The notes below the pieces were generated by a model. It had not been told where the DNA came from, did not search any database, and saw only the letters and a program-made list of their open reading frames with translations. DNA of 64,000 bases from Streptomyces sp. CG4. Its GTDB lineage: Bacteria; Actinomycetota; Actinomycetes; Streptomycetales; Streptomycetaceae. The position numbers were made by a program, and so were the translations under genes. Where the stretch lies: assembly GCF_041080655.1 (NCBI RefSeq), contig NZ_CP163525.1:2170001-2234000 (forward strand), written 5' to 3'. Shown piece by piece: positions 26,181-56,878 of this stretch (positions are counted from its first letter, which is position 1; every line of letters starts with the position of its first letter).

Positions 26181-27518
26181 TTACTGGGGGCGGGCGAGGA
26201 GGGTGCCCTTCGGCTCGCTGAACTCGCCGCCACCGGCGATCCGTTCGCCGCGCAGCCAGGTGGATTTCACGACGCCGTACAGGGTCTTGCCGGCGTACGC
26301 GGTGACCCGGTTGCGGTGCTGGAGGCCGGCCGGGTCGACGGTGAAGGTCTCGTCGGGGGCGAGGACGGCGAAGTCGGCGTCGCGGCCGGCCTCGATCGCG
26401 CCCTTGTCCCGCAGGCCCACGAGTGCGGCCGTCCGCGTGGACATCCAGCGCACGACGTCCTCCAGGCCGCACCCACGCGCGCGTGCCGCGGTCCATACGG
26501 CGGACAGGCTGAGCTGGAGGCCGGAGATGCCGCCCCAGGCGGTGGCGAAGTCGGCGGTCTTCAGGTCGGCGGTGGAGGGCGAGTGGTCGGTGACGACACA
26601 GTCGATGGTGCCGTCGGCCAGCGCCTCCCAGAGCAGGTCCTGGTTGGCGGCCTCGCGGATGGGCGGGCAGCACTTGAACTCGCTGGCGCCGTCCGGGACT
26701 TCCTCGGCGGTGAGGGTGAGGTAGTGCGGGCAGGTCTCCACGGTGACCTGGACGCCCTCGGCGCGCGCGGCGCGGATCAGCGGCAGCGCGTCGCTGGAGG
26801 ACAGATGCAGCACGTGCACGCGCGCACGGAGCCGCTTGGCCTGCGCGACGAGGTTCGCGATGGCCGTGTCCTCGGCGTCGCGCGGGCGGGAGGCGAGGAA
26901 GTCGGCGTACTTGGGGCCGCCGTGCTGCGGGGCGGCGGCCAGGTGGTGCGGGTCCTCGGCGTGCACGATCAGCAGGCCGCCGAAGCCGGCGATCTCCGCC
27001 AGGGACTGGGCGAGCCGGTCCTGGTCCAGGTGCGGGAACTCGTCCACCCCGGACGGGGACAGGAACGCCTTGAAGCCGAAGACGCCGGCGTCGTGCAGCG
27101 GGCGCAGGTCCTTGACGTTGTCGGGCAGGGCGCCGCCCCAGAAACCGACGTCGATGTGCGCCTTGTCGGCGGCGACCTGCTGCTTGACCCGCAGGTTCTC
27201 GACCGTGGTGGTCGGCGGGAGGGAGTTGAGCGGCATGTCGATCAGCGTGGTGATGCCGCCGGCCGCCGCCGCGCGGGTGGCGGTCCAGAAGCCCTCCCAC
27301 TCGGTGCGGCCGGGATCGTTGACGTGCACGTGGGTGTCGACCAGGCCGGGCAGCAGGACGTGGTCGCCGAAGTCCTCCAGCCGTGCGCCGGCCGGGATCT
27401 GCGCGTCGTACGGCAGGACGGCCGTGATCTTCCCGGCGGACACGGCGACCGAGGCGGCCCGCGTCCCTTCCGGAGTGATGACGCGCGTCGAGCGCAGGAC
27501 CAGTTCAGCGTCGGACAC
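26181..27518 (-). CDS. allB: Allantoinase
   Basis: 445 residues, amidohydrolase superfamily. Opens the hydantoin ring of allantoin to give allantoate. Binuclear metal site: HxH in [10 protein letters not shown], the carboxylated Lys in [11 protein letters not shown], His in LLIVHAEDP and VHVLHLSS, and Asp in [10 protein letters not shown]. The GTG at 27518 follows AGAGAGGGG. A strong promoter (TTGACT-17-TACGTT, reverse strand, 27739-27711) lies about 190 bp upstream, overlapped by two IclR-type operators; the long leader also holds a TCAAC-N5-GTTGA palindrome (27584-27598). Repression by AllR and induction by pathway intermediates is the likely control. Confidence 0.97.
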
Positions 27519-27583: not shown

Positions 27584-27598
27584 TCAACGTTCTGTTGA
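27584..27598. promoter_or_regulatory. TCAAC-N5-GTTGA palindrome in the allB leader
   Basis: TCAACGTTCTGTTGA, arms perfect. It belongs to the motif family found over the -35 boxes of the uricase operon and katA, but here it lies downstream of the predicted allB start point, 66 bp before the GTG. Confidence 0.5.
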
Positions 27599-27676: not shown

Positions 27677-27712
27677 TTCCACAAAGCGGAATTAGAATTC
27701 CAGCAAGCAGAA
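27677..27712. promoter_or_regulatory. Pair of IclR-type (AllR) operators at allB/allR
   Basis: TTCCACAAAGCGGAA (27677-27691) and TTCCAGCAAGCAGAA (27698-27712), start to start 21 bp. The second overlaps the -10 of the allB promoter. The same 15-bp pseudo-palindrome, in the same two-turn spacing, recurs before aceB, hyi and gcl. Confidence 0.75.
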
Positions 27713-27792: not shown

Positions 27793-28587
27793 GTGCCGAC
27801 GTCCAGCGCCAGCACCACCGACTCCGCCAAGCCCGCCGCCGGGGGCGGTGTCCAGTCCCTGGAGCGCGCCTTCGACCTGCTCGAGCGGATGGCGGACGCG
27901 GGTGGCGAGGTCGGGCTCAGCGAGCTGTCCGCGACCAGCGGGCTGCCCCTGCCGACCATCCACCGTCTGATGCGCACGCTGGTCGCCTGCGGCTACGTCC
28001 GCCAGCAGCCGAACCGGCGGTACGCGCTCGGCCCCCGGCTCATCCGGCTCGGCGAGTCGGCGTCCCGGCTGCTCGGCACCTGGGCACGGCCGTATCTCGC
28101 CCGGCTGGTCGAGGAGACCGGCGAGACCGCGAACATGGCGCTGCTCGACGGCGACGAGATCGTGTACGTGGCGCAGGTGCCGTCGAAGCACTCGATGCGG
28201 ATGTTCACGGAAGTGGGCCGACGGGTGCTGCCGCACTCCACCGGTGTCGGAAAGGCACTGCTCGCCGGGGTGCCGGACGACGAGGTGCGGGCGCTGCTCG
28301 CGCGCACCGGGATGCCCGCGGCCACGGAGAAGACCATCACCACGCCCGAGGGTTTCCTGGCGGCGCTGGACGATGTGCGGCGGACGGGGTACGCCGTCGA
28401 CGACAACGAGCAGGAGATCGGGGTGCGGTGCCTCGCGGTGTCCGTCCCGGACAGCCCGACCGCGGCCGCGATCTCCATCTCCGGGCCGGCCGGACGTGTC
28501 ACCGAAGCGGCGACCGACAAGATCGTGCCGGTGTTGCAGCAGATCGCCCTTGAGCTGTCTCAGGCGCTGGCCAGTTCGGGCGCCTGA
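27793..28587 (+). CDS. allR: IclR-family regulator of allantoin/glyoxylate metabolism
   Basis: 264 residues. N-terminal winged helix-turn-helix (about 20-85; LSATSGLPLPTIHRLMRTLV) and C-terminal IclR effector domain (about 100-260; STGVGKALLAGVPDDEV and NEQEIGVRCLAVSVPD). The GTG at 27793 follows GAAAGGA. It is divergent from allB. A Streptomyces IclR-type repressor called AllR is known (from memory) to control allantoin-pathway genes with ureide or glyoxylate effectors; position and domain content fit it. The TTCC...GGAA 15-mers at five promoters in this window resemble IclR-family sites in size and symmetry and are its likely targets. Confidence 0.92.
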   Translation: MPTSSASTTDSAKPAAGGGVQSLERAFDLLERMADAGGEVGLSELSATSGLPLPTIHRLMRTLVACGYVRQQPNRRYALGPRLIRLGESASRLLGTWARPYLARLVEETGETANMALLDGDEIVYVAQVPSKHSMRMFTEVGRRVLPHSTGVGKALLAGVPDDEVRALLARTGMPAATEKTITTPEGFLAALDDVRRTGYAVDDNEQEIGVRCLAVSVPDSPTAAAISISGPAGRVTEAATDKIVPVLQQIALELSQALASSGA

Positions 28588-29702: not shown

Positions 29703-29717
29703 TCAACAAACCATTGA
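29703..29717. promoter_or_regulatory. TCAAC-N5-TTGA motif at the aceB -35
   Basis: TCAACAAACCATTGA, one mismatch in the right arm relative to the uricase/katA palindromes, overlapping the -35 hexamer TTGAAG of the aceB promoter. Confidence 0.45.
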
Positions 29718-29837: not shown

Positions 29838-31463
29838 ATGTCCGCACCAGCGCCGTCCCCGCTGGCCATCGTCGACGCCGAGCCCCTGCCCCGGCAGGAA
29901 GAGGTCCTCACGGACGCGGCGCTCGCCTTCGTGGCGGAGCTGCACCGGCGGTTCACCCCGCGCCGTGACGAACTCCTCGCCCGCCGGGCCGAGCGCCGCG
30001 CCGAGATCGCCCGCACCTCCACGCTCGACTTCCTCCCCGAGACAGCCGCGATCCGCGCGGACGACTCCTGGCGGGTCGCCCCGGCCCCGGCCGCGCTGAA
30101 CGACCGGCGCGTCGAGATCACCGGCCCCACCGACCGCAAGATGACCATCAACGCGCTCAACTCGGGCGCGAAGGTCTGGCTCGCCGACTTCGAGGACGCC
30201 TCCGCGCCCACCTGGGAGAACGTGGTCCTCGGCCAGATCAACCTGGTCGACGCCTACACCCGGAACATCGACTTCACCGACCCGAGGTCCGGCAAGTCGT
30301 ACGCCCTGCGCCCGAACGAGGAGCTGGCGACCGTCGTCATGCGGCCGCGCGGCTGGCACCTGAACGAGCGGCACCTCGTCGACGCCGACGGCACGCCGGT
30401 CCCCGGTGCCTTCGTCGACTTCGGCCTCTACTTCTTCCACAACGCCCAGCGGCTGCTGGACCTCGGCAAGGGCCCGTACTTCTACCTGCCCAAGACCGAG
30501 TCGCACCTCGAGGCGCGGCTGTGGAACGACGTGTTCGTCTTCGCCCAGGACTACGTCGGCATCCCGCAGGGCACCGTCCGCGCCACCGTCCTGATCGAGA
30601 CGATCACGGCCGCGTACGAGATGGAGGAGATCCTCTACGAACTCCGCGACCACGCCGCCGGGTTGAACGCCGGTCGCTGGGACTACCTGTTCTCCATCGT
30701 CAAGAACTTCCGGGACGGCGGCGCCAGGTTCGTGCTGCCGGACCGCAACGCGGTCACGATGACGGCCCCGTTCATGCGGGCGTACACCGAGCTCCTCGTC
30801 CGCACCTGCCACAAGCGCGGCGCGCACGCGATCGGCGGCATGGCGGCCTTCATCCCGTCCCGCAGGGACGCCGAGGTCAACAAGGTGGCGTTCGAGAAGG
30901 TCCGCGCCGACAAGGACCGCGAGGCGAACGACGGTTTCGACGGCTCCTGGGTCGCCCACCCCGACCTCGTCCCGATCGCCATGGAGTCCTTCGACAGGGT
31001 CCTCGGCGACAAGCCGAACCAGAAGGACCGGCTGCGCGAGGACGTCCACGTCGAGGCGGCCGACCTGATCGCGGTCGACTCGCTGGACGCGAAGCCGACG
31101 TACCACGGTCTCGTCAACGCCGTCCAGGTCGGCATCCGGTACATCGAGGCCTGGCTGCGCGGGCTCGGCGCGGTCGCCATCTTCAATCTGATGGAGGACG
31201 CGGCCACCGCGGAGATCTCCCGCTCGCAGATCTGGCAGTGGATCAACGCGGGCGTCGAGTTCGAGAACGGCGACAAGGCCACGCCGGAACTGGCCCGCAA
31301 GGTCGCCGCCGAGGAACTGTCCAACATCCGCCAGGAGATCGGCGAGCAGGCCTTCGCCGCCGGCCACTGGCAGGAGGCCCACGATCTGCTGCTGCGGGTC
31401 TCCCTGGACGACGACTACGCCGACTTCCTCACCCTGCCGGCGTACGAGCAGCTGCGCGGCTGA
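29838..31463 (+). CDS. aceB: Malate synthase A
   Basis: 541 residues, the length of the A-type enzyme. Condenses glyoxylate with acetyl-CoA to malate. Conserved segments: [19 protein letters not shown], catalytic Arg region [36 protein letters not shown] with the Mg-binding Glu/Asp, and [12 protein letters not shown]. The ATG at 29838 follows GAAGGAAG. With no isocitrate lyase nearby, and with AllR-type operators on its promoter, it probably serves glyoxylate released from ureidoglycolate. It ends in a convergent terminator. Confidence 0.97.
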
Positions 31464-49116: not shown

Positions 49117-50538
49117 CTAGGAGGATTTGAGTGCCGGGGCGGTTCTGCCGCTCCGGGTGCCGAGATGATGGAAGAACAGGTTGAGCAGGACGGCGGCGAG
49201 CGCGCCCGCACTGATGCCGGAGCCGAGCACGGTCTGCGCCCAGGCCGGGAAGCCGGCGTAGAAGGCCGGTGCGGCCAGCGGGATGATGCCGGCGCCGAGC
49301 GCCACGGCGACCAGGACGATGTTGGAGCTGTCGTCGAGCCCGGCCTCCGAGAGGGTACGGATGCCGCTGACGGCGATGGAGCCGAAGAGCACGATGCCCG
49401 CGCCGCCGAGGACCGGCAGGGGGACCAGGGAGACGACCGCGCCGAGGACCGGGAAGGCGCCGAGGACCAGCAGGGCGCCGCCGGCGACGGCGACGACATA
49501 GCGGCTGCGTACCCGGGTCAACGACACCACGCCGACGTTCTGGGCGAAGGCGGAGGTCGGGAAGCCGCCGAAGACGGGTCCGAGCAGGGTGGCGATGCCG
49601 TCGGTGCGCAGACCACGGGTGAGGGTCCGCGCGTCGGTGCGGCGCCCGCAGATCTCGCCGAGGGCGAGCATGCCGGCGCTGGACTCGGTCATCAGCACCA
49701 GCATCACGATGCACAGCGACAGCACGGCGGCGGGCTGGAACGCCGGCGCGCCGAAGGCGAACGGCGTCGGCAGCGCGGCGACGGGCGCGGACTTCAGGGC
49801 GCCGAAGTCGGCCATCCCGAACGGGACGGCGGCCAGGGTGCCGACGAGCAGCCCGAGCAGCAGGGCGACCTGCTTGACGAAGCCGCGGCCGAACCGCTGG
49901 ATCAGCAGGATGACGGCGAGCGTGAAGCCGGCGAGCGCAAGGTTGTGCATGGCGCCGAAGTCGGCGGCGGTCTTGTCGCCGCCCTGAGCCCAGCTGACCG
50001 GGACGGGCATCAGGGTGACGCCGATCAGGGTGATGACGACACCGGTGACGAGCGGCGGGAAGAAGCGCAGCAGTCGCCCGAAGAAGGGTCCGACGGCGAG
50101 GCAGAAGGCACCGGCGACCATCACCGCGCCGTAGACGGCGGGGAGTTGGTGGCCCTTGCTGTTCGTCTCGGCGATCGCGAGGATCGGGGCGATGCCGGCC
50201 GAGGAGGCGGCGTTGACGAAGGGCAGCCGGTTGCCGACGAAGCCCTTGACGCCGATGGTCTGCAGGACGGTCGCGACACCCGCGATCAGCAGGCTCGCGG
50301 CGATCAGCCGGGTGCGGGCGGCCAGGTCGAGTCCGCAGGCCTGGCCGATGATGAGCGGAGGAGTGACCACACCTGCGTACATCGCGGCGATGTGCTGGAG
50401 CGCGGCGGGGAAGAGTCGCGCGACAGGCAGCTTCTCGTCCACCGGGTGCACGGACGCGACGGCCGTGACGGCGTCCTCGGTGTGCACCGGCGGGGTGGAA
50501 CAGGGGACTTCTGCCGGCCCCTTTGCAGGCTGTGCCAT
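49117..50538 (-). CDS. NCS2-family nucleobase/urate permease 2
   Basis: 473 residues; same layout as permease 1 (LQHIAAMYAGVVTPPLIIG, LMTESSAGMLALGEICGR, FAQNVGVVSLTRVRSR, GGAGIVLFGSIAVSGIRTL). The paralogues are about half identical by eye and probably differ in substrate. The ATG at 50538 has a good GGAGGG ribosome site. It follows uricase by 64 bp and is probably in the uraD-uraH-uricase operon, so urate or xanthine uptake is the likely role. Confidence 0.93.
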   Translation of the reverse strand: MAQPAKGPAEVPCSTPPVHTEDAVTAVASVHPVDEKLPVARLFPAALQHIAAMYAGVVTPPLIIGQACGLDLAARTRLIAASLLIAGVATVLQTIGVKGFVGNRLPFVNAASSAGIAPILAIAETNSKGHQLPAVYGAVMVAGAFCLAVGPFFGRLLRFFPPLVTGVVITLIGVTLMPVPVSWAQGGDKTAADFGAMHNLALAGFTLAVILLIQRFGRGFVKQVALLLGLLVGTLAAVPFGMADFGALKSAPVAALPTPFAFGAPAFQPAAVLSLCIVMLVLMTESSAGMLALGEICGRRTDARTLTRGLRTDGIATLLGPVFGGFPTSAFAQNVGVVSLTRVRSRYVVAVAGGALLVLGAFPVLGAVVSLVPLPVLGGAGIVLFGSIAVSGIRTLSEAGLDDSSNIVLVAVALGAGIIPLAAPAFYAGFPAWAQTVLGSGISAGALAAVLLNLFFHHLGTRSGRTAPALKSS

Positions 50539-50602
50539 GGTGATCCCTCCGGTGTCACGTGTCCCCGGCCCGGGTGGCGGGACCGGGGACACGCGTCCCT
50601 CG

Positions 50603-51526
50603 TCAGAGGTTGGTCATGTCGACCGGGATCTTCGGCTCACAGCCGTCCCGGAGGATGGTCGCCTCGATCAGGCCGTAGGGCCGGTCGGCGGCGTAGTAGA
50701 CCTCGTTGTCGTTCTTGAGCCCGAAGGGCTCCAGGTCGACCAGGAAGTGGTGCTTGTTCGGCAGCGAGAAGCGGACCTCGTCGATCTCGCTGCGGTTGTT
50801 GATGATGCGCGCACCCATCTGGTACAGCGTCTGCTGCAGGGAGAGGGAGTACGTCTCGGCGAAGGCCTGGAGCATGTGCTTCTTGACCTGCTCGTAGGAC
50901 TTCTCCCAGTTGGGCATCCTCTGCTCGTCGTCGGTCCAGTTGAACCGCCAGCGGCCGGAGACCTGGGTGGCCAGGATGCGGTCGTACGCCTCCTGCAGGG
51001 TCGTGTACTTGTCCTTGACGTAACCCCAGAATTCGGAGTTCGTCGAGTTCATCACGACCAGGTCCTTCAGACCGGAGACGACCTCCCACTGCTCACCGTC
51101 GTAGGTGATCTGGGTGACGCGGGTCTCCTGGCCCTTGCGGACGAACGAGTGCTTGACCTCGTCCGCGCCGATGAACTTGGAGTTGGCGTCGGAGGTCTCG
51201 ATCCGCTCCCAGGCGTACTCCTCGATCCGGATCCGGGCGCGGTGGATCGGCTCCTGCGAGGTGACGAAGTGGCGGGCGAGATGGATGCCGAACTGCTCGG
51301 CGGACTCGATGCCGTACTCCTTGGCGAACGCGTACACCGTGTTCTTGGTGGTGTCGGTCGGCAGGACGTTGGCGTTGGAGCCGGAGTAGTGGACCTCGTC
51401 CATGTCGCCGCTCAGCGCGACGGAGACGTTGAGGTCCTTGATGTGGTGGGTGGCGCCGTCCCGCGTGATCTTTACGACTCGGTTCTCGGCCTTGCCGTAC
51501 TGGTTCTGTCCCAGGATGGTGGGCAT
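50603..51526 (-). CDS. uox: Urate oxidase (uricase)
   Basis: 307 residues, cofactor-free. Oxidises urate to 5-hydroxyisourate with release of H2O2. The N-terminal Lys (GQNQYGKAENRVVK) and the Thr in VLPTDTTKNTVYAFAKEYG form the catalytic pair; EQFGIHLARHFV, the Gln-bearing SLQQTLYQMG and the LPNKHHFLVDLEPFG loop (active-site His) are present. Four bp behind the HIU hydrolase gene in an operon with uraD and uraH. Promoter control is discussed at 52499-52539. The linked katA gene carries the same palindrome, consistent with peroxide made here. Confidence 0.97.
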   Translation of the reverse strand: MPTILGQNQYGKAENRVVKITRDGATHHIKDLNVSVALSGDMDEVHYSGSNANVLPTDTTKNTVYAFAKEYGIESAEQFGIHLARHFVTSQEPIHRARIRIEEYAWERIETSDANSKFIGADEVKHSFVRKGQETRVTQITYDGEQWEVVSGLKDLVVMNSTNSEFWGYVKDKYTTLQEAYDRILATQVSGRWRFNWTDDEQRMPNWEKSYEQVKKHMLQAFAETYSLSLQQTLYQMGARIINNRSEIDEVRFSLPNKHHFLVDLEPFGLKNDNEVYYAADRPYGLIEATILRDGCEPKIPVDMTNL

Positions 51527-51530
51527 TTAG

Positions 51531-51932
51531 CTAGCTCCCTCGGTAAACGGAGTAGCCGAACGGGTTGAGCAGCAGCGGCACGTGGTAGTGCTCCCCGGGG
51601 TGCACGGCGAAAGTGATCGCCACCTCGGGGAAGAACACGGCACCGCTGTCCCGATTCGCGGGGGCGTCCTGCTGCGCATCGGCTTGCTTGTTCTCGGACT
51701 GCAAGAAATACGCCTCGACGGCGAAGTCGAGCCGTACGTGGGTGGTCCCCTCCGGCAGTGCCGGCAGGTCCTTGCACCGGCCGTCGGCGTCGGTCGCGGA
51801 GCCGCCGAGCGCCTGCCAGTCCGCTGCCCGGCCGCTGCGGGCGGAGAGCTGGATGGCGACGCCCTCGGCGGGGCGGCCGACCGAGGTGTCCAGGATGTGG
51901 GTGGACACGGAGGCGGTGGTGCTGGTGCTCAT
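51531..51932 (-). CDS. uraH: 5-Hydroxyisourate hydrolase (transthyretin-like)
   Basis: 133 residues. Opens hydroxyisourate to OHCU. N-terminal His in VSTHILDTSVGRPA, Arg further on, His in GEHYHVPLLLNPFGYSVYRGS, and the diagnostic C-terminal YRGS. An insertion rich in Gln/Ala/Asp (NKQADAQQDAPANRD, about 80-95) lengthens one loop. The ATG at 51932 lies 4 bp behind uraD. Confidence 0.96.
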   Translation of the reverse strand: MSTSTTASVSTHILDTSVGRPAEGVAIQLSARSGRAADWQALGGSATDADGRCKDLPALPEGTTHVRLDFAVEAYFLQSENKQADAQQDAPANRDSGAVFFPEVAITFAVHPGEHYHVPLLLNPFGYSVYRGS

Positions 51933-51936
51933 GGTG

Positions 51937-52449
51937 TCAGGCGTCCTCTTCGACGAGTCGGGCCAGTCGGATGCGGTTGATCTTGCCCAGCTCGGTGCGG
52001 ACGATCTCCCGCTCCTGCTCCGGCGCGTTCCCGATCCGCTCCTTGACGGCGTCGCGCATCTGCTCGCCGGTGCGACCGGTGGCGCAGATCAGGAACACAT
52101 GGCCGAACTTGTCCTGGTAGGCCAGGTTGAGTTCGAGCATCTCGGTCCTGAGTGCCTCCGAGGCGCCGGCCATGCCGCGCTGCTCGCGGGCGGAGGTGGG
52201 GTCGCCGGGCTTGGGGCGGCCGATCGGCGGGTGCCCCGCCATGGCCTCCTCCAGGTCCGCCGTGGTCAGCTCGGCCATGGCGGCGTCACTGGCGGCGTAG
52301 AGCTCGTCGGCGCCGGCGTAGGGGCGGGCGGCGAGCAGTCGCCGGGCCCACGTGGTGGAGGCACACGCCTCGTGGAGGGCGGCGAGGGCCGCGCGCTCCT
52401 CCAGGTCGTTGAACCGGGCCAGGCCCGGGGGCGTGGAAGTCGAAGTCAC
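51937..52449 (-). CDS. uraD: OHCU decarboxylase
   Basis: 170 residues. Decarboxylates 2-oxo-4-hydroxy-4-carboxy-5-ureidoimidazoline to S-allantoin. Catalytic His in AGHPPIGRP; other conserved parts are FNDLEERAALAALHEACAS, FGHVFLICATGRTGEQM and the C-terminal LGKINRIRLARL. The GTG at 52449 follows GGAGGC. First gene of the uraD-uraH-uricase-permease operon, about 43 bp after the predicted start of transcription. Confidence 0.96.
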   Translation of the reverse strand: MTSTSTPPGLARFNDLEERAALAALHEACASTTWARRLLAARPYAGADELYAASDAAMAELTTADLEEAMAGHPPIGRPKPGDPTSAREQRGMAGASEALRTEMLELNLAYQDKFGHVFLICATGRTGEQMRDAVKERIGNAPEQEREIVRTELGKINRIRLARLVEEDA

Positions 52450-52498: not shown

Positions 52499-52528
52499 TA
52501 GCTAACGCCCCCGGAAACGCCACGTCAA
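52499..52528 (-). promoter_or_regulatory. Promoter of the uraD-uraH-uricase operon
   Basis: Reverse strand: -35 TTGACG (52528-52523), 18-bp spacer, -10 TAGCTA (52504-52499). The -35 is part of the palindrome at 52525-52539. Confidence 0.65.
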
Positions 52529-52539
52529 CACTTTGTTGA
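52525..52539. promoter_or_regulatory. Palindromic operator over the uricase-operon -35
   Basis: Reverse strand reading TTCAACAAAGTGTTGACG. The katA promoter has TTCAACAAACTGTTGACG in the same position relative to its -35, a 17/18 match. Arms TCAAC/GTTGA are perfect. Confidence 0.7.
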
Positions 52540-52601
52540 AAATTCCGCGTAACAAGACGTATGGCTCCGGAGCCGTGCTACCGCCCCGCCCCCGTGGCCG
52601 A

Positions 52602-52964
52602 TCAGGCACCCTTCTCACGGTTGAGGTAGTTGTAGACCGTGAAGCGGCTGACGCCGAGCGCGCCCGCCACGGTCTCCACGCCGTGCCGCACGGCGAAGGC
52701 GCCGCGGGCTTCCAGTATGCGCACGATCTCCTGTTTCGCCTTGCGGTCCAGGTCGGCCAGCGGCCGGCCCTGCCGGCGCTCCATGGCGGCCAGGATGTGA
52801 TCGAGGGAGTCGGCGAGCTGAGGCAGGCGCACGGCGACGACGTCGACACCCTCCCAGGCGAGGACGACATCGTCGGGGCCGGCCTCGTCCGGCGGGACCA
52901 GCCGCCCGCCCATGGCGTCGACCAGCGGCTTCACGGCCGTGATGAAGGGCTCGTCCGCGCTCAT
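52602..52964 (-). CDS. Small helix-turn-helix protein
   Basis: 120 residues. A helical N-terminal part containing PLADLDRKAKQEIVRILEAR is followed by a Fis-type helix-turn-helix at the extreme C-terminus (VETVAGALGVSRFTVYNYLN). The N-terminal half (about 1-60; VDAMGGRLVPPDEAGPDDVV) may sense a ligand. The ATG at 52964 overlaps the stop of the thiamine-binding-like gene. It ends 150 bp before uraD and is read in the same direction. Position next to the shared uricase/katA palindrome makes it a candidate regulator of that site; unproven. Confidence 0.8.
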   Translation of the reverse strand: MSADEPFITAVKPLVDAMGGRLVPPDEAGPDDVVLAWEGVDVVAVRLPQLADSLDHILAAMERRQGRPLADLDRKAKQEIVRILEARGAFAVRHGVETVAGALGVSRFTVYNYLNREKGA

Positions 52965-53224
52965 CTATCGCCCTCCCCGTTCCCGTCGTCGACCACGTTG
53001 ACCTGGAGCGAGATCCGGGTGGCACCGGCCGCCAGGCTCTTGCGCAGCAACGCGTCCACGGCATCGAGCACGCGGTCCGCGCCGCCTTCGGCCGTGTTAC
53101 CGAACGGTCCGACGTCGACGGCGTCCAGTTCGGCCGTCTCGATGACCTCCCGCGCCACCAGGGCGTGCGCGGGCGCCTCGTCCAGATCGAAGGGTTCGGT
53201 CGTGAACTCCACTCTCAATCGCAC
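52961..53224 (-). CDS. Thiamine-binding-like (MTH1187/YkoF family) small protein
   Basis: 87 residues. Ferredoxin-like alpha/beta pattern with the family core DAVDVGPFGNTAEGGADRVL and AGATRISLQVNV. Relatives bind thiamine or related small ligands and often partner transporters or regulators. The GTG at 53224 follows AGGTTGAG. Its stop overlaps the helix-turn-helix gene (ATGA), so the two make one unit and could form a sensor/regulator pair. Confidence 0.7.
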   Translation of the reverse strand: MRLRVEFTTEPFDLDEAPAHALVAREVIETAELDAVDVGPFGNTAEGGADRVLDAVDALLRKSLAAGATRISLQVNVVDDGNGEGDR

Positions 53225-53278
53225 GCGCTCAACCTAGCGCCCGCCGGCGCTTTTCGGGCGGTCGGCAACGAACCCCCC

Positions 53279-53308
53279 TTGACAAGCGCCGACACACGAC
53301 GGCAATCT
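53279..53308 (+). promoter_or_regulatory. hyi-glxR promoter
   Basis: -35 TTGACA (53279-53284), 18-bp spacer, -10 CAATCT (53303-53308). The start point would fall within the first AllR-type operator. Confidence 0.6.
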
Positions 53309-53343
53309 TCCATTAAGCAGAAACGAACTTCCGTAATGCGGAA
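53308..53343. promoter_or_regulatory. Pair of AllR-type operators at hyi
   Basis: TTCCATTAAGCAGAA (53308-53322) and TTCCGTAATGCGGAA (53329-53343), start to start 21 bp; the second is nearly a perfect palindrome. They sit at and just after the predicted transcription start. Confidence 0.75.
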
Positions 53344-53373
53344 TATCGACCCACGGAAGGGAGCGCGGCCCGA

Positions 53374-54231
53374 ATGCCAGGTTTCGAATGGAGCACAGCC
53401 GCAGACCAGCGCTTCAACGTCAACCTGTCGATCCTCTTCACGGAACTCCCGCTCCTGGAGCGCCCCGCGGCCGCCGCCGCGGCGGGCTTCACGGCGGTCG
53501 AGCTGTGGTGGCCCTGGGTCGACTCCCCCACCCCCGAGCAGTCCGAGCTCGACGCCCTGAAGAAGGCGATCGAGGACGCGGGCGTCCAGCTCACGGGCCT
53601 GAACTTCTACGCCGGACAGCTGCCGGGCCCGGACCGCGGCGCCCTGTCGGTCCCGGGCGAGGAGTCGGACCGGTTCCGCGCCAACATCGACGTGGCCATC
53701 GCCTTCGCCCAGTCCCTCGGCTGCACGGTGTTCAACGCCCTGTACGGCAACCGCGTCGACGGTGTGGACCCGGCCGAGCAGGACGCCCTCGCCCTGGAGA
53801 ACCTGGTCCTCGCGGCCCGGGCGGTCGGCCGGGTCGGCGGGACGATCCTGGTCGAGGCCCTGAACCAGCCCGAGTCGCCGAAGTGCCCGATCGTGAGCGC
53901 GCCCCAGGCGATCGAGATCGTCGACAAGGTCAACGAGGCGACGGGTCTCGGGAACGCGAAGTTCCTGATGGACCTGTACCACCTGTCGATGAACGGCGAG
54001 GACCTGCCGTCGGTGATCGAGCAGTACGCGGCGAAGACCGGCCACGTCCAGATCGCCGACAACCCCGGCCGCGGCGCCCCCGGGACGGGTTCGCTCCCGC
54101 TGGAGGAGCTGCTCGACCAGCTGAGGAAGGCCGGTTACGACGGCTGGGTCGGTCTGGAGTACAAGGCCGGCGACCGCCCGAGCGCCGAGTCCTTCGACTG
54201 GCTCCCGCGCGAGGCGCGTGCCGCCCGCTGA
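53374..54231 (+). CDS. hyi: Hydroxypyruvate isomerase (Hyi-type TIM barrel)
   Basis: 285 residues, xylose-isomerase-like TIM barrel. Interconverts hydroxypyruvate and tartronate semialdehyde. Characteristic pieces: RFNVNLSILFTELPLLERPA at the start, FNALYGNRVDGVDP, catalytic Glu in ILVEALNQPE, metal residues in LMDLYHLSMNGED and HVQIADNPGRGAPGTG, and a final Glu in GWVGLEYK. The ATG at 53374 follows GGAAGGGAG. Forms an operon with glxR and lies in the glyoxylate branch with gcl. Confidence 0.93.
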   Translation: MPGFEWSTAADQRFNVNLSILFTELPLLERPAAAAAAGFTAVELWWPWVDSPTPEQSELDALKKAIEDAGVQLTGLNFYAGQLPGPDRGALSVPGEESDRFRANIDVAIAFAQSLGCTVFNALYGNRVDGVDPAEQDALALENLVLAARAVGRVGGTILVEALNQPESPKCPIVSAPQAIEIVDKVNEATGLGNAKFLMDLYHLSMNGEDLPSVIEQYAAKTGHVQIADNPGRGAPGTGSLPLEELLDQLRKAGYDGWVGLEYKAGDRPSAESFDWLPREARAAR

Positions 54232-54274
54232 ACCCCCCGACTTTGCAAGGCAGTTGAGAGAGGCACCCCCAATC

Positions 54275-55192
54275 ATGAGCAGCAACCTTTCCGATTCCTC
54301 CCGCCCGGCCCGCCCTGCGATCGCGTGGATCGGCCTCGGCATCATGGGCTCCCCCATGTCCGAGAACCTGATCAAGGCGGGTTACGACGTCACCGGCTTC
54401 ACGCTGGAGCAGGACAAGCTGGACCGCCTGGCCGCCGCCGGCGGCACCGTGGCCGGCTCGATCGCCGAGGCCGTGCGCGACGCCGACGTGGTGATCACGA
54501 TGGTGCCCGCGTCCCCGCAGGTCGAGGCCATCTCCTACGGCCCCGACGGCATCCTGGAGAACGCCAGGCAGGGCGCCCTGCTGATCGACATGTCCTCGAT
54601 CACCCCGCAGACCTCCGTCGACCTGGCCGCCGCGGCCAAGGACAAGGGCATCCGGGTGCTCGACGCCCCGGTGTCCGGCGGTGAGGCCGGCGCCATCGAG
54701 GCCGTACTGTCGATCATGGTCGGCGGTGAGCAGGCCGACTTCGACCAGGCCAAGCCGATCTTCGACGCGCTGGGCAAGACCATCGTGCTGTGCGGCCCGC
54801 ACGGCTCCGGCCAGACCGTGAAGGCGGCCAACCAGCTGATCGTGGCCGTGAACATCCAGGCGTGCGCCGAGGCCGTGGTCTTCCTGGAGAAGTCGGGCGT
54901 GGACCTCGCGGCCGCGCTGGACGTCCTGGGCGGCGGCCTCGCGGGCTCGACCGTGCTGACCCGCAAGAAGGACAACTTCCTCAACCGCGACTTCAAGCCG
55001 GGCTTCCGTATCGACCTGCACCACAAGGACATGGGCATCGTCACGGACGCCGCCCGCAACGTGGGTGCCGCGCTGCCCGTCGGTGCCGTGGTCGCGCAGT
55101 TGGTCGCCTCGCTGCGCGCCCAGGGCGACGGCGGTCTGGACCACTCGGCTCTGCTGCGGGCCGTGGAGCGCCTGTCCGGCGCCCAGGTCTGA
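54275..55192 (+). CDS. glxR: 2-Hydroxy-3-oxopropionate (tartronate semialdehyde) reductase
   Basis: 305 residues, beta-hydroxyacid dehydrogenase family. Rossmann motif WIGLGIMGSPMSENL, substrate loop DAPVSGGEAGAI, catalytic Lys in GQTVKAANQLIV, and HKDMGIVTDAARNVG in the C-terminal domain. Reduces the Gcl product tartronate semialdehyde to D-glycerate. The ATG at 54275 follows GAGAGAGG; the in-frame ATG at 54218 overlaps hyi and lacks a site. Co-transcribed with hyi (43 bp apart). Confidence 0.96.
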   Translation: MSSNLSDSSRPARPAIAWIGLGIMGSPMSENLIKAGYDVTGFTLEQDKLDRLAAAGGTVAGSIAEAVRDADVVITMVPASPQVEAISYGPDGILENARQGALLIDMSSITPQTSVDLAAAAKDKGIRVLDAPVSGGEAGAIEAVLSIMVGGEQADFDQAKPIFDALGKTIVLCGPHGSGQTVKAANQLIVAVNIQACAEAVVFLEKSGVDLAAALDVLGGGLAGSTVLTRKKDNFLNRDFKPGFRIDLHHKDMGIVTDAARNVGAALPVGAVVAQLVASLRAQGDGGLDHSALLRAVERLSGAQV

Positions 55193-55307
55193 CGCGCCCC
55201 TGAGACTTCCGGGCGGCGCCGCCGCTGACACCTGTCCTGTCGCGCCCAGGCGCCGGCGCCGTCCGGAACCACCCGCAGATCACCCGCAGACCAGGCTCAG
55301 ATCGACT

Positions 55308-55322
55308 TCAACAAACTGTTGA
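55308..55322. promoter_or_regulatory. Palindromic operator over the katA -35
   Basis: TCAACAAACTGTTGA inside TTCAACAAACTGTTGACG; the same sequence bar one base lies over the uricase-operon -35. The -35 hexamer TTGACG is its right end. Confidence 0.7.
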
Positions 55323-55348
55323 CGTTCAGATTGCCCCACTTCTAGGCT
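55319..55348 (+). promoter_or_regulatory. katA promoter
   Basis: -35 TTGACG (55319-55324), 18-bp spacer, -10 TAGGCT (55343-55348). The 12-mer ACTTCTAGGCTC containing the -10 is repeated 17 bp downstream (55356-55367). Confidence 0.65.
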
Positions 55349-55363
55349 CACAAGACTTCTAGG

Positions 55364-55378
55364 CTCCACAAAGCGGAA
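55364..55378. promoter_or_regulatory. AllR-type operator at katA
   Basis: CTCCACAAAGCGGAA, nearly identical to the first allB site. Exactly 21 bp on, at 55385, a left half-site TTCCG occurs but the right half is not conserved. Located about 10 bp after the predicted transcription start. Confidence 0.6.
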
Positions 55379-55414: not shown

Positions 55415-56878
55415 ATGTCGAAGCGCGTGCTCACGACAGAGGCCGGCGCCCCGGTCGCCGACAACCAGAACTCCGCATCCGCCGGCGTCGGCGGCCCGCT
55501 CCTGATCCAGGACCAGCAGCTCCTGGAGAAGCTCGCACGCTTCAACCGCGAGCGGATCCCGGAGCGCGTGGTGCACGCCCGTGGCTCCGGCGCGTACGGC
55601 CACTTCGAGGTGACCGACGACGTCACCGGCTTCACCCACGCCGACTTCCTGAGCGAGATCGGCAAGCGCACCGAGGTCTTCCTGCGCTTCTCCACGGTCG
55701 CCGACTCCCTCGGCGGCGCGGACGCCGTCCGTGACCCGCGGGGCTTCGCGCTGAAGTTCTACACCGAGGAGGGCAACTACGACCTCGTCGGCAACAACAC
55801 CCCGGTGTTCTTCATCAAGGACCCGATCAAGTTCCCCGACTTCATCCACTCGCAGAAGCGGGACCCGTTCACCGGCAAGCAGGAGCCGGACAACGTCTGG
55901 GACTTCTGGGCACACGCCCCCGAGGCCACGCACCAGGTGACCTGGCTGATGGGCGACCGCGGCATCCCGGCGTCGTACCGGCACATGAACGGCTACGGCT
56001 CGCACACCTACCAGTGGACGAACGCGGAGGGCGAGGCCTTCTTCGTCAAGTACCACTTCAAGACGAACCAGGGCATCCGCTGCCTGAGCAGCGAGCAGGC
56101 CGCGGAGCTGGCGGGCAAGGACCCGGGCTCGCACCAGACGGACCTGCTGCAGGCCATCGAGCGGGGCGTGCACCCGTCCTGGACCCTCTACGTCCAGATC
56201 ATGCCGGCGGCCGAGGCGGCGGACTACCGCTTCAACCCGTTCGACCTGACCAAGGTCTGGCCGCACAAGGACTACCCGCTGCAGCGCGTGGGCCGCCTGG
56301 TCCTCGACCGCAACCCCGACAACGTCTTCGCCGAGGTCGAGCAGGCCGCGTTCTCCCCGAACAACTTCGTTCCGGGCATCGGCCCCTCCCCCGACAAGAT
56401 GCTCCAGGGCCGCCTGTTCGCCTACGCGGACGCACACCGCTACCGCCTGGGCGTCAACCACACCCACCTCGCCGTGAACGCCCCGAAGGCGGTCGCGGGC
56501 GGCGCCCAGAACTACGGCCGCGACGGCTTCATGGCGGTCAACGGCCAGGGCCGCGGCGCCAAGAACTACGAGCCGAACTCCTACGACGGCCCGGCGGAGA
56601 CCGGCCGCCCGCTGTCGGCTCCCCTGGCGGTCTCCGGCTACACGGGCAACCACGAGGCACCGCTGCACACCAAGGACGACGCCTTCTTCCAGGCGGGCGA
56701 GCTGTACCGCCTGATGTCCGAGGAGGAGAAGTCCCGCCTCGTCGCGAACATCGCCGGCGGCCTCTCGCAGGTCTCCCGCGACGACGTGATCGAGAAGAAC
56801 CTGGCCCACTTCCACGCCGCCGACCCGGACTACGGCAAGCGCGTGGAGGAGGCGGTCCGCGCCCTGCGCGAGGACTGA
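55415..56878 (+). CDS. katA: Catalase (small-subunit haem catalase)
   Basis: 487 residues, monofunctional clade 3. Distal His in [16 protein letters not shown], Asn in [15 protein letters not shown], Ser/Phe around [13 protein letters not shown], and proximal haem ligand Tyr in [20 protein letters not shown]-site residues lie around [12 protein letters not shown]. The ATG at 55415 follows GGAAGG. Placed between glxR and gcl and sharing a promoter palindrome with the uricase operon, it is most simply read as the catalase that disposes of uricase-derived H2O2. It ends in a strong terminator. Confidence 0.97.

Follow-up and report, generated by a model that had tools for sequence, protein, structure and literature searches.

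A palindrome conserved over the −35 element of the uricase operon and katA marks a purine-catabolism regulon in Streptomyces, with an HTH_22 protein as its candidate regulator

Why should the uricase operon and a catalase gene of Streptomyces sp. CG4 carry nearly the same palindrome at their promoters? Both lie in the stretch of DNA analysed here (64,000 nucleotides of NZ_CP163525.1, positions 2,170,001 to 2,234,000; hereafter the window), and an original prediction had proposed that 18-bp sequences at the two promoters, each ending in the −35 hexamer, form a regulatory input that matches peroxide removal to urate oxidation. Our comparison of sequences across genomes leads us to posit that the palindrome is probably the operator of a purine-catabolism regulon, bound by a dimer of an HTH_22 protein working with a Thiamine_BP partner, which would repress through the −35 element until a ligand appears. 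The boxes and promoters concerned are as follows.

52523-52540, reverse strand: operator box of uraD-uraH-uox, TTCAACAAAGTGTTGACG, overlapping the −35 element (sequence)
55307-55324, forward strand: operator box of katA, TTCAACAAACTGTTGACG, overlapping the −35 element (sequence)
27584-27598, no strand assigned: operator box in the allB/allR intergenic region, one mismatch (sequence, conserved in place)
29703-29717, forward strand: degenerate operator box 5′ of aceB, two mismatches (sequence, conserved in place)
52499-52528, reverse strand: predicted sigma-70 promoter of uraD, TTGACG - 18 nt - TAGCTA (sequence, conserved in 79 promoters)
55319-55348, forward strand: predicted promoter of katA, TTGACG - 18 nt - TAGGCT (sequence, conserved)

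The two full boxes agree at 17 of 18 positions and have TTGACG, the −35 element, as their 3′ end, just as had been claimed; they are the sole matches in the window at up to three mismatches, and 100 dinucleotide shuffles of the window gave no match to the 18-mer within that limit. The weaker copies foreseen at allB and aceB are likewise present, with one and two mismatches, and are conserved in place. A genome-wide search, which the original prediction had proposed as a check, found the exact 15-bp core TCAACA-N3-TGTTGA four times in the 10.2-Mb genome, against 0.03 expected from composition: at uraD, katA and cydA, and within a MarR-family gene. This last copy (C1:3162660-3162674) sits in the 5′ coding part of the gene, at about codon 24, and the MarR gene was set aside as a regulator for that reason; TTCAACAGGCTGTTGA is also found in one other genome (G067). 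Four sites with two mismatches in the same genome were rejected, their neighbours having no link to purine catabolism.

Is the palindrome a regulatory element, or is it the context of a strong −35 that two promoters share by chance or for basal strength? The 3′ end of the box is indeed the −35 itself, yet conservation argues strongly against this second explanation. Of 101 Streptomyces genomes, 98 contain the exact 16-mer TTCAACA-N3-TGTTGA (TTCAACANNNTGTTGA) and none contains the same pattern reversed. Among 80 relatives fetched with the uraD protein, 79 have the exact core 48-94 nt 5′ of uraD and the 80th has it with one mismatch; at the same loci the core is present in 48 usable katA promoters and missing at four katA homologues. 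In both the uraD and the katA set, identity reaches 90% or more at 14 of the 15 core positions, as against 11 of the 75 flanking positions in the one and 7 of 75 in the other, and the left arm TTCAACA is conserved as strongly as the −35. The layout of box, −35 and −10 is kept across the 79 uraD and 48 katA promoters, with TTGACG and a TAG-type −10 conserved in both, and boxes stand at varied distances from the start codons of nine gene families. We give next to no credence to a mere −35 context; judged by its conservation, the palindrome is a true regulatory element common to the uricase operon and katA, and it recurs at related promoters in many genomes, above the control, as the common operator of a conserved regulon. 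The katA box varies between relatives in its position relative to the start codon, the operator-to-start distances forming classes of about −90 and about −99 to −109. In the window, ACTTCTAGGCTC is found twice at 55338-55369 in the katA promoter, between the operator and an AllR-like box, apparently as a short tandem duplication of the −10 region.

Which genes, then, does the box mark? Those in the window are listed here, together with the permease gene that follows uox.

51937-52449, reverse strand: uraD, OHCU decarboxylase, target (NCBIfam)
51531-51932, reverse strand: uraH, hydroxyisourate hydrolase, target (NCBIfam)
50603-51526, reverse strand: uox, uricase, target (NCBIfam)
49117-50592, reverse strand: xanthine permease family (NCS2), downstream in the operon direction (NCBIfam)
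55415-56878, forward strand: katA, catalase, target (NCBIfam catalase match below the cut-off)
26181-27518, reverse strand: allB, allantoinase, target (position and the annotation of the original prediction)
29838-31463, forward strand: aceB, malate synthase, target (annotation of the original prediction; malate synthase A is named in the L348 island, below)

Across the collected loci, 240 of 273 exact boxes lie at most 450 bp upstream of nine related genes: uraD (147), katA (59), cydA (12), a DUF6986 aldolase gene (6), aceB (6), the malic enzyme gene (5), moaA (2), allB (2, besides many copies with one mismatch) and, once, in another family, the gene of the xanthine dehydrogenase FeS/FAD subunit (xdh); these counts are biased by the fetching of loci, many of them through uraD homology, and some loci overlap. 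As annotated, the box-marked genes form one route, which leads from xanthine (xdh and the molybdenum cofactor) through urate, allantoin and glyoxylate to malate and pyruvate and is joined by catalase for the H2O2 of uricase. The proposed tie between uricase and catalase holds in that the element is conserved at both; its scope was drawn too narrowly, since the box is also found at DUF6986, malic enzyme, moaA and xdh genes and, in some lineages, at cydA, and so marks a regulon for the whole way from purine to malate, in which peroxide removal is one branch. Exact matches outside the family (L135-L151) look unrelated, being mostly in coding sequence or, in one family, at a TetR/flavin-monooxygenase promoter. 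In one non-Streptomyces family (L141-L145), a very similar palindrome such as TCAACACGGTGTTGA separates the gene of a TetR-type regulator from one that resembles flavin monooxygenase genes, some of these loci having a second related copy, and it is probably an unrelated TetR operator.

What protein, left unnamed by the original prediction, would read this operator? Co-occurrence across genomes points to an uncharacterised HTH_22 protein encoded beside uraD as the best candidate, with a second small protein encoded next to it.

52602-52964, reverse strand: HTH_22 (PF13309) protein, 120 aa, proposed regulator (Pfam, co-occurrence)
52961-53224, reverse strand: Thiamine_BP-fold (PF01910) protein, 87 aa, proposed sensor partner, gene overlapping that of the HTH_22 protein (Pfam, fold)

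The HTH_22 protein matches PF13309 at 73.7 bits against a cut-off of 29.6 (E 1.2e-20), and its gene, hth22, normally lies directly upstream of uraD in the loci of relatives. In the genus set, all 98 box-bearing Streptomyces genomes have an unbroken orthologue; of the three genomes without the box, two lack the orthologue and one has a frameshifted copy in two frames. A family sample gave 110 genomes with both box and protein, 8 with neither, 2 with the protein only and 1 with the box only, and among 215 distinct family genomes the corresponding numbers are 201, 10, 3 and 1 (Fisher 7e-14, a value that overstates independence because the genomes are related), the three protein-only copies being one frameshifted, one truncated and one intact. 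Because hth22 adjoins uraD, a single deletion can take out both the gene and the box, as G247 shows, and we therefore compared the unlinked allB and aceB promoters instead: the box is present at up to two mismatches in 25 of 27 of these where the protein exists and in 1 of 8 where it does not (Fisher 4e-5, relatedness ignored). In genomes with hth22, the allB box is in the same place in 18 of 20 cases and the aceB box, at up to two mismatches, in 7 of 7. The uraD promoter lacks the box in three hth22-less genomes, G247, G348 and G363; in G363, TGTTGACG is retained, with TTGACG and a −10-like TAGCTT, and the left arm is lost. Two genomes with a broken hth22, G010 and G428, have uraD boxes with one and two mismatches, as would be expected of decay.

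The partner protein of the window scores 23.0 bits against PF01910, just under the cut-off of 24.9, and orthologues score above it (41.2 and 38.8 bits). Its predicted fold matches 1yqh, 2eky, 1vk8 and 1lxn, with 1yqh, 1vk8 and 1lxn at E <= 2.2e-4, so that it is predicted to fold like MTH1187/TM0486/YkoF; by Pfam match and fold it belongs to the Thiamine_BP/MTH1187 group. The two proteins are encoded by separate genes in Streptomycetaceae, that of the Thiamine_BP protein being immediately upstream in 134 of 148 loci examined. In G146, a genome of another family in the same class, they are fused in one 190-aa protein encoded beside uox (L213), and boxes stand at the uox, xdh and symporter promoters. 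In Tsukamurella tyrosinosolvens (Mycobacteriales), an orthologue with 49% identity came to light when plasmid records were searched by protein, and only afterwards was its promoter checked for the box: there, a gene pair for a thiamine-binding protein and then an HTH protein diverges from uraD-uraH-pucL, and the 113-bp common divergent promoter holds an exact box, GTCAACAGTTTGTTGAA, the sole match in 18 kb.

Several observations weigh against assigning the operator to the HTH_22 protein, besides the relatedness of the genomes and the possible loss of hth22 and the uraD box in one deletion. G361 lacks the box although its orthologue is intact, and G386, a 250-contig draft in which no orthologue was found, carries boxes in front of aceB, DUF6986 and malic enzyme genes. 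The recognition helix SRFTVYNYLN is common to other HTH_22 proteins, a paralogue of which could bind some of the sites; identity of this helix, shared by another HTH_22 protein, was accordingly dropped as support. The cydA box is found in about 3 of 16 genomes with hth22 and also in the hth22-less G247, and cydA may be outside the regulon or under another protein. Could the operator, real as it is, be bound by a different conserved regulator, a PAS-HTH_22 paralogue or an unrelated protein, with HTH_22 a mere neighbour of uraD that is lost along with the box? Adjacency makes such co-loss easy, HTH_22 recognition helices are alike, and G361 and G386 break the match of box and protein; against this, the unlinked allB and aceB sites are also lost where HTH_22 is missing, and Tsukamurella and G146 combine protein, box and uricase neighbourhood across orders and families, which leaves a different regulator improbable.

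As to cydA itself, we rejected it as a firm member of the regulon and keep it as lineage-specific and uncertain, its box being patchy across genomes with and without hth22. In the CG4 genome an exact copy of the palindrome is upstream of cydA (L218:2317-2331, equal to C1:4975316-4975330); other lineages have it in the interval that separates cydA from a divergently transcribed Cyclophil_like (PF04126) gene, whose start is 24 nt away. The copy kept in G247 has one mismatch and possibly serves another regulator.

Might the box instead be a second class of site for the AllR-like regulator, whose gene and katA site are also in the window?

27793-28587, forward strand: AllR-like IclR regulator gene (Pfam/NCBIfam)
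55364-55378, forward strand: AllR-like box CTCCACAAAGCGGAA at katA (sequence; conserved in katA promoters)

The AllR (IclR) regulon of Streptomyces and E. coli controls allantoin and glyoxylate metabolism, with overlapping targets, and TTCC...GGAA boxes, of AllR type, occur in the window along with the AllR-like gene. A scan of the window found TTCC-N7-GGAA pairs at 27677, 53329, 58185 and 59630 and none at the uricase promoter, as originally stated; the palindrome is distinct from the AllR-like boxes. An AllR-type box is absent at uraD and has a one-mismatch form at katA, and katA promoters alone carry the downstream AllR-like ccacaaagcggaa box, so a fair reading of the sequence is that katA is under two separate inputs, one of them common to uricase. 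A second class of AllR site would account for the overlap in targets (allB, aceB and katA) and for the 6-3-6 architecture of both box types; TTCCAC-N3-GCGGAA nevertheless differs in sequence, AllR belongs to another protein family than HTH_22, and AllR-like proteins persist in the hth22-less G247, G294, G043, G351 and G348, whose allB or aceB promoters, so far as readable, have lost the palindrome. We consider this explanation very unlikely. The AllR-like palindromes TTCCACAAAGCGGAA, TTCCGTAATGCGGAA and TTCCGCATTGCGGAA (27677, 53329 and 59630) make up a second set of sites in the same island.

How would an HTH_22 regulator act from this site? From the conservation, the target set, the co-occurrence, the coupling and fusion of the genes and the predicted folds, we infer that an HTH_22 dimer most likely binds the palindrome directly. 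The operator would cover uraD-uraH-uox (urate to allantoin), allB (allantoin hydrolysis), aceB (glyoxylate to malate) and katA (the H2O2 of uricase), to which some lineages would add xdh, moaA, the DUF6986 aldolase, malic enzyme and cydA. Since the box overlies a −35 that is near consensus, repression by occlusion, in which HTH_22 would exclude RNA polymerase, is the most likely sign of control and is favoured over activation, and the operator would be released once a metabolite of the pathway is present. The Thiamine_BP-fold protein, coupled to the HTH_22 gene and once fused to it, is for that reason the natural candidate for a sensor, probably of a small molecule of the pathway. A point against repression is that a box centred near −40 could also suit a class II activator, and HTH_22 may act on the same regulon and operator by contacting sigma from there, the centre of the box preceding the −35 by about 4-5 bp. 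Against this, the box reaches into a −35, TTGACG, that is itself near consensus, and G363 keeps TTGACG and TAGCTT and loses the left arm, as would be expected after loss of a repressor; activation is a tentative alternative. Whether the repressor proposed here amounts to a new type of regulator, in which a split, sometimes fused Thiamine_BP sensor and HTH_22 binder control the xanthine/urate-to-malate route and catalase through a purine metabolite, we hold to be evenly poised.

How does this compare with known systems? HucR and PecS are urate-responsive MarR repressors, with urate-linked control of a uricase gene through a palindrome; our candidate is instead of the HTH_22 type and has a Thiamine_BP partner. 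Regulators of the DauR/YheO type are PAS-HTH_22 proteins and share the C-terminal HTH_22 domain with the window protein. The latter has at its N-terminus only a short alpha-beta element, and its Thiamine_BP-fold partner is a protein apart; HTH_22 is the only domain found in its 120 aa, and the absence of the PAS-like YheO domain places it outside that group. A relative of solved structure, sought by profile and by fold, was not found. The TetR-family XdhR of S. coelicolor regulates a purine-catabolic enzyme, its reported targets being xdh and antibiotic genes and its reported ligand ppGpp (PMC6627660); it belongs to another protein family, and the passages on XdhR in that review name neither uricase nor katA. 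HbpS-SenS-SenR, on which lowering of the S. coelicolor uricase operon SCO6209-6211 depends (PMC4991794), is a redox-linked control of the same operon; it is a two-component system with another proposed site, CCAGCCGCCGTCCGGT, and the passages concerned do not describe the palindrome. The thiamin-binding fold of TM0486/MTH1187 is known from Dermoun et al. 2010, going by the title as cited in PMC6393860; in the present case the fold is paired with, or fused to, a DNA-binding domain and has a link to purine catabolism. We found no earlier report of the palindrome or its regulator in the open-licence literature, and a description in a subscription journal is possible. SCO6208 of S. coelicolor, entered as a 'putative transposase' in PMC3897704, is by its numbering likely the counterpart of the HTH_22 gene. 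For this apparently unassigned regulator gene there is now an operator that can be tested and a regulon that makes sense as a whole. One conserved operator is shared by a catabolic enzyme that makes peroxide and an enzyme that removes it, the arrangement suggests that the poorly understood Thiamine_BP/MTH1187 fold can act as the sensor half of a regulator, and the box permits direct prediction of purine-catabolic genes across Streptomycetaceae.

Two further records carry parts of the locus. The viral contig IMGVR_UViG_2667527450_000001 (L346) starts with Streptomyces hyi, Thiamine_BP and hth22 genes, followed by an integrase in the usual place of uraD, and is apparently a prophage inserted at the 3′ end of hth22, with the Streptomyces chromosomal end adjoining the integrase. 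L348 (NZ_CP104320.1) is a record of 27 kb from Streptomyces angustmyceticus with the label plasmid p3; on it lies a purine island with hyi, glxR, katA, hth22, uraD-uraH-pucL, permeases, 8-oxoguanine deaminase and aceB; exact boxes stand at uraD and katA, and the glyoxylate carboligase-like genes are in two fragments.

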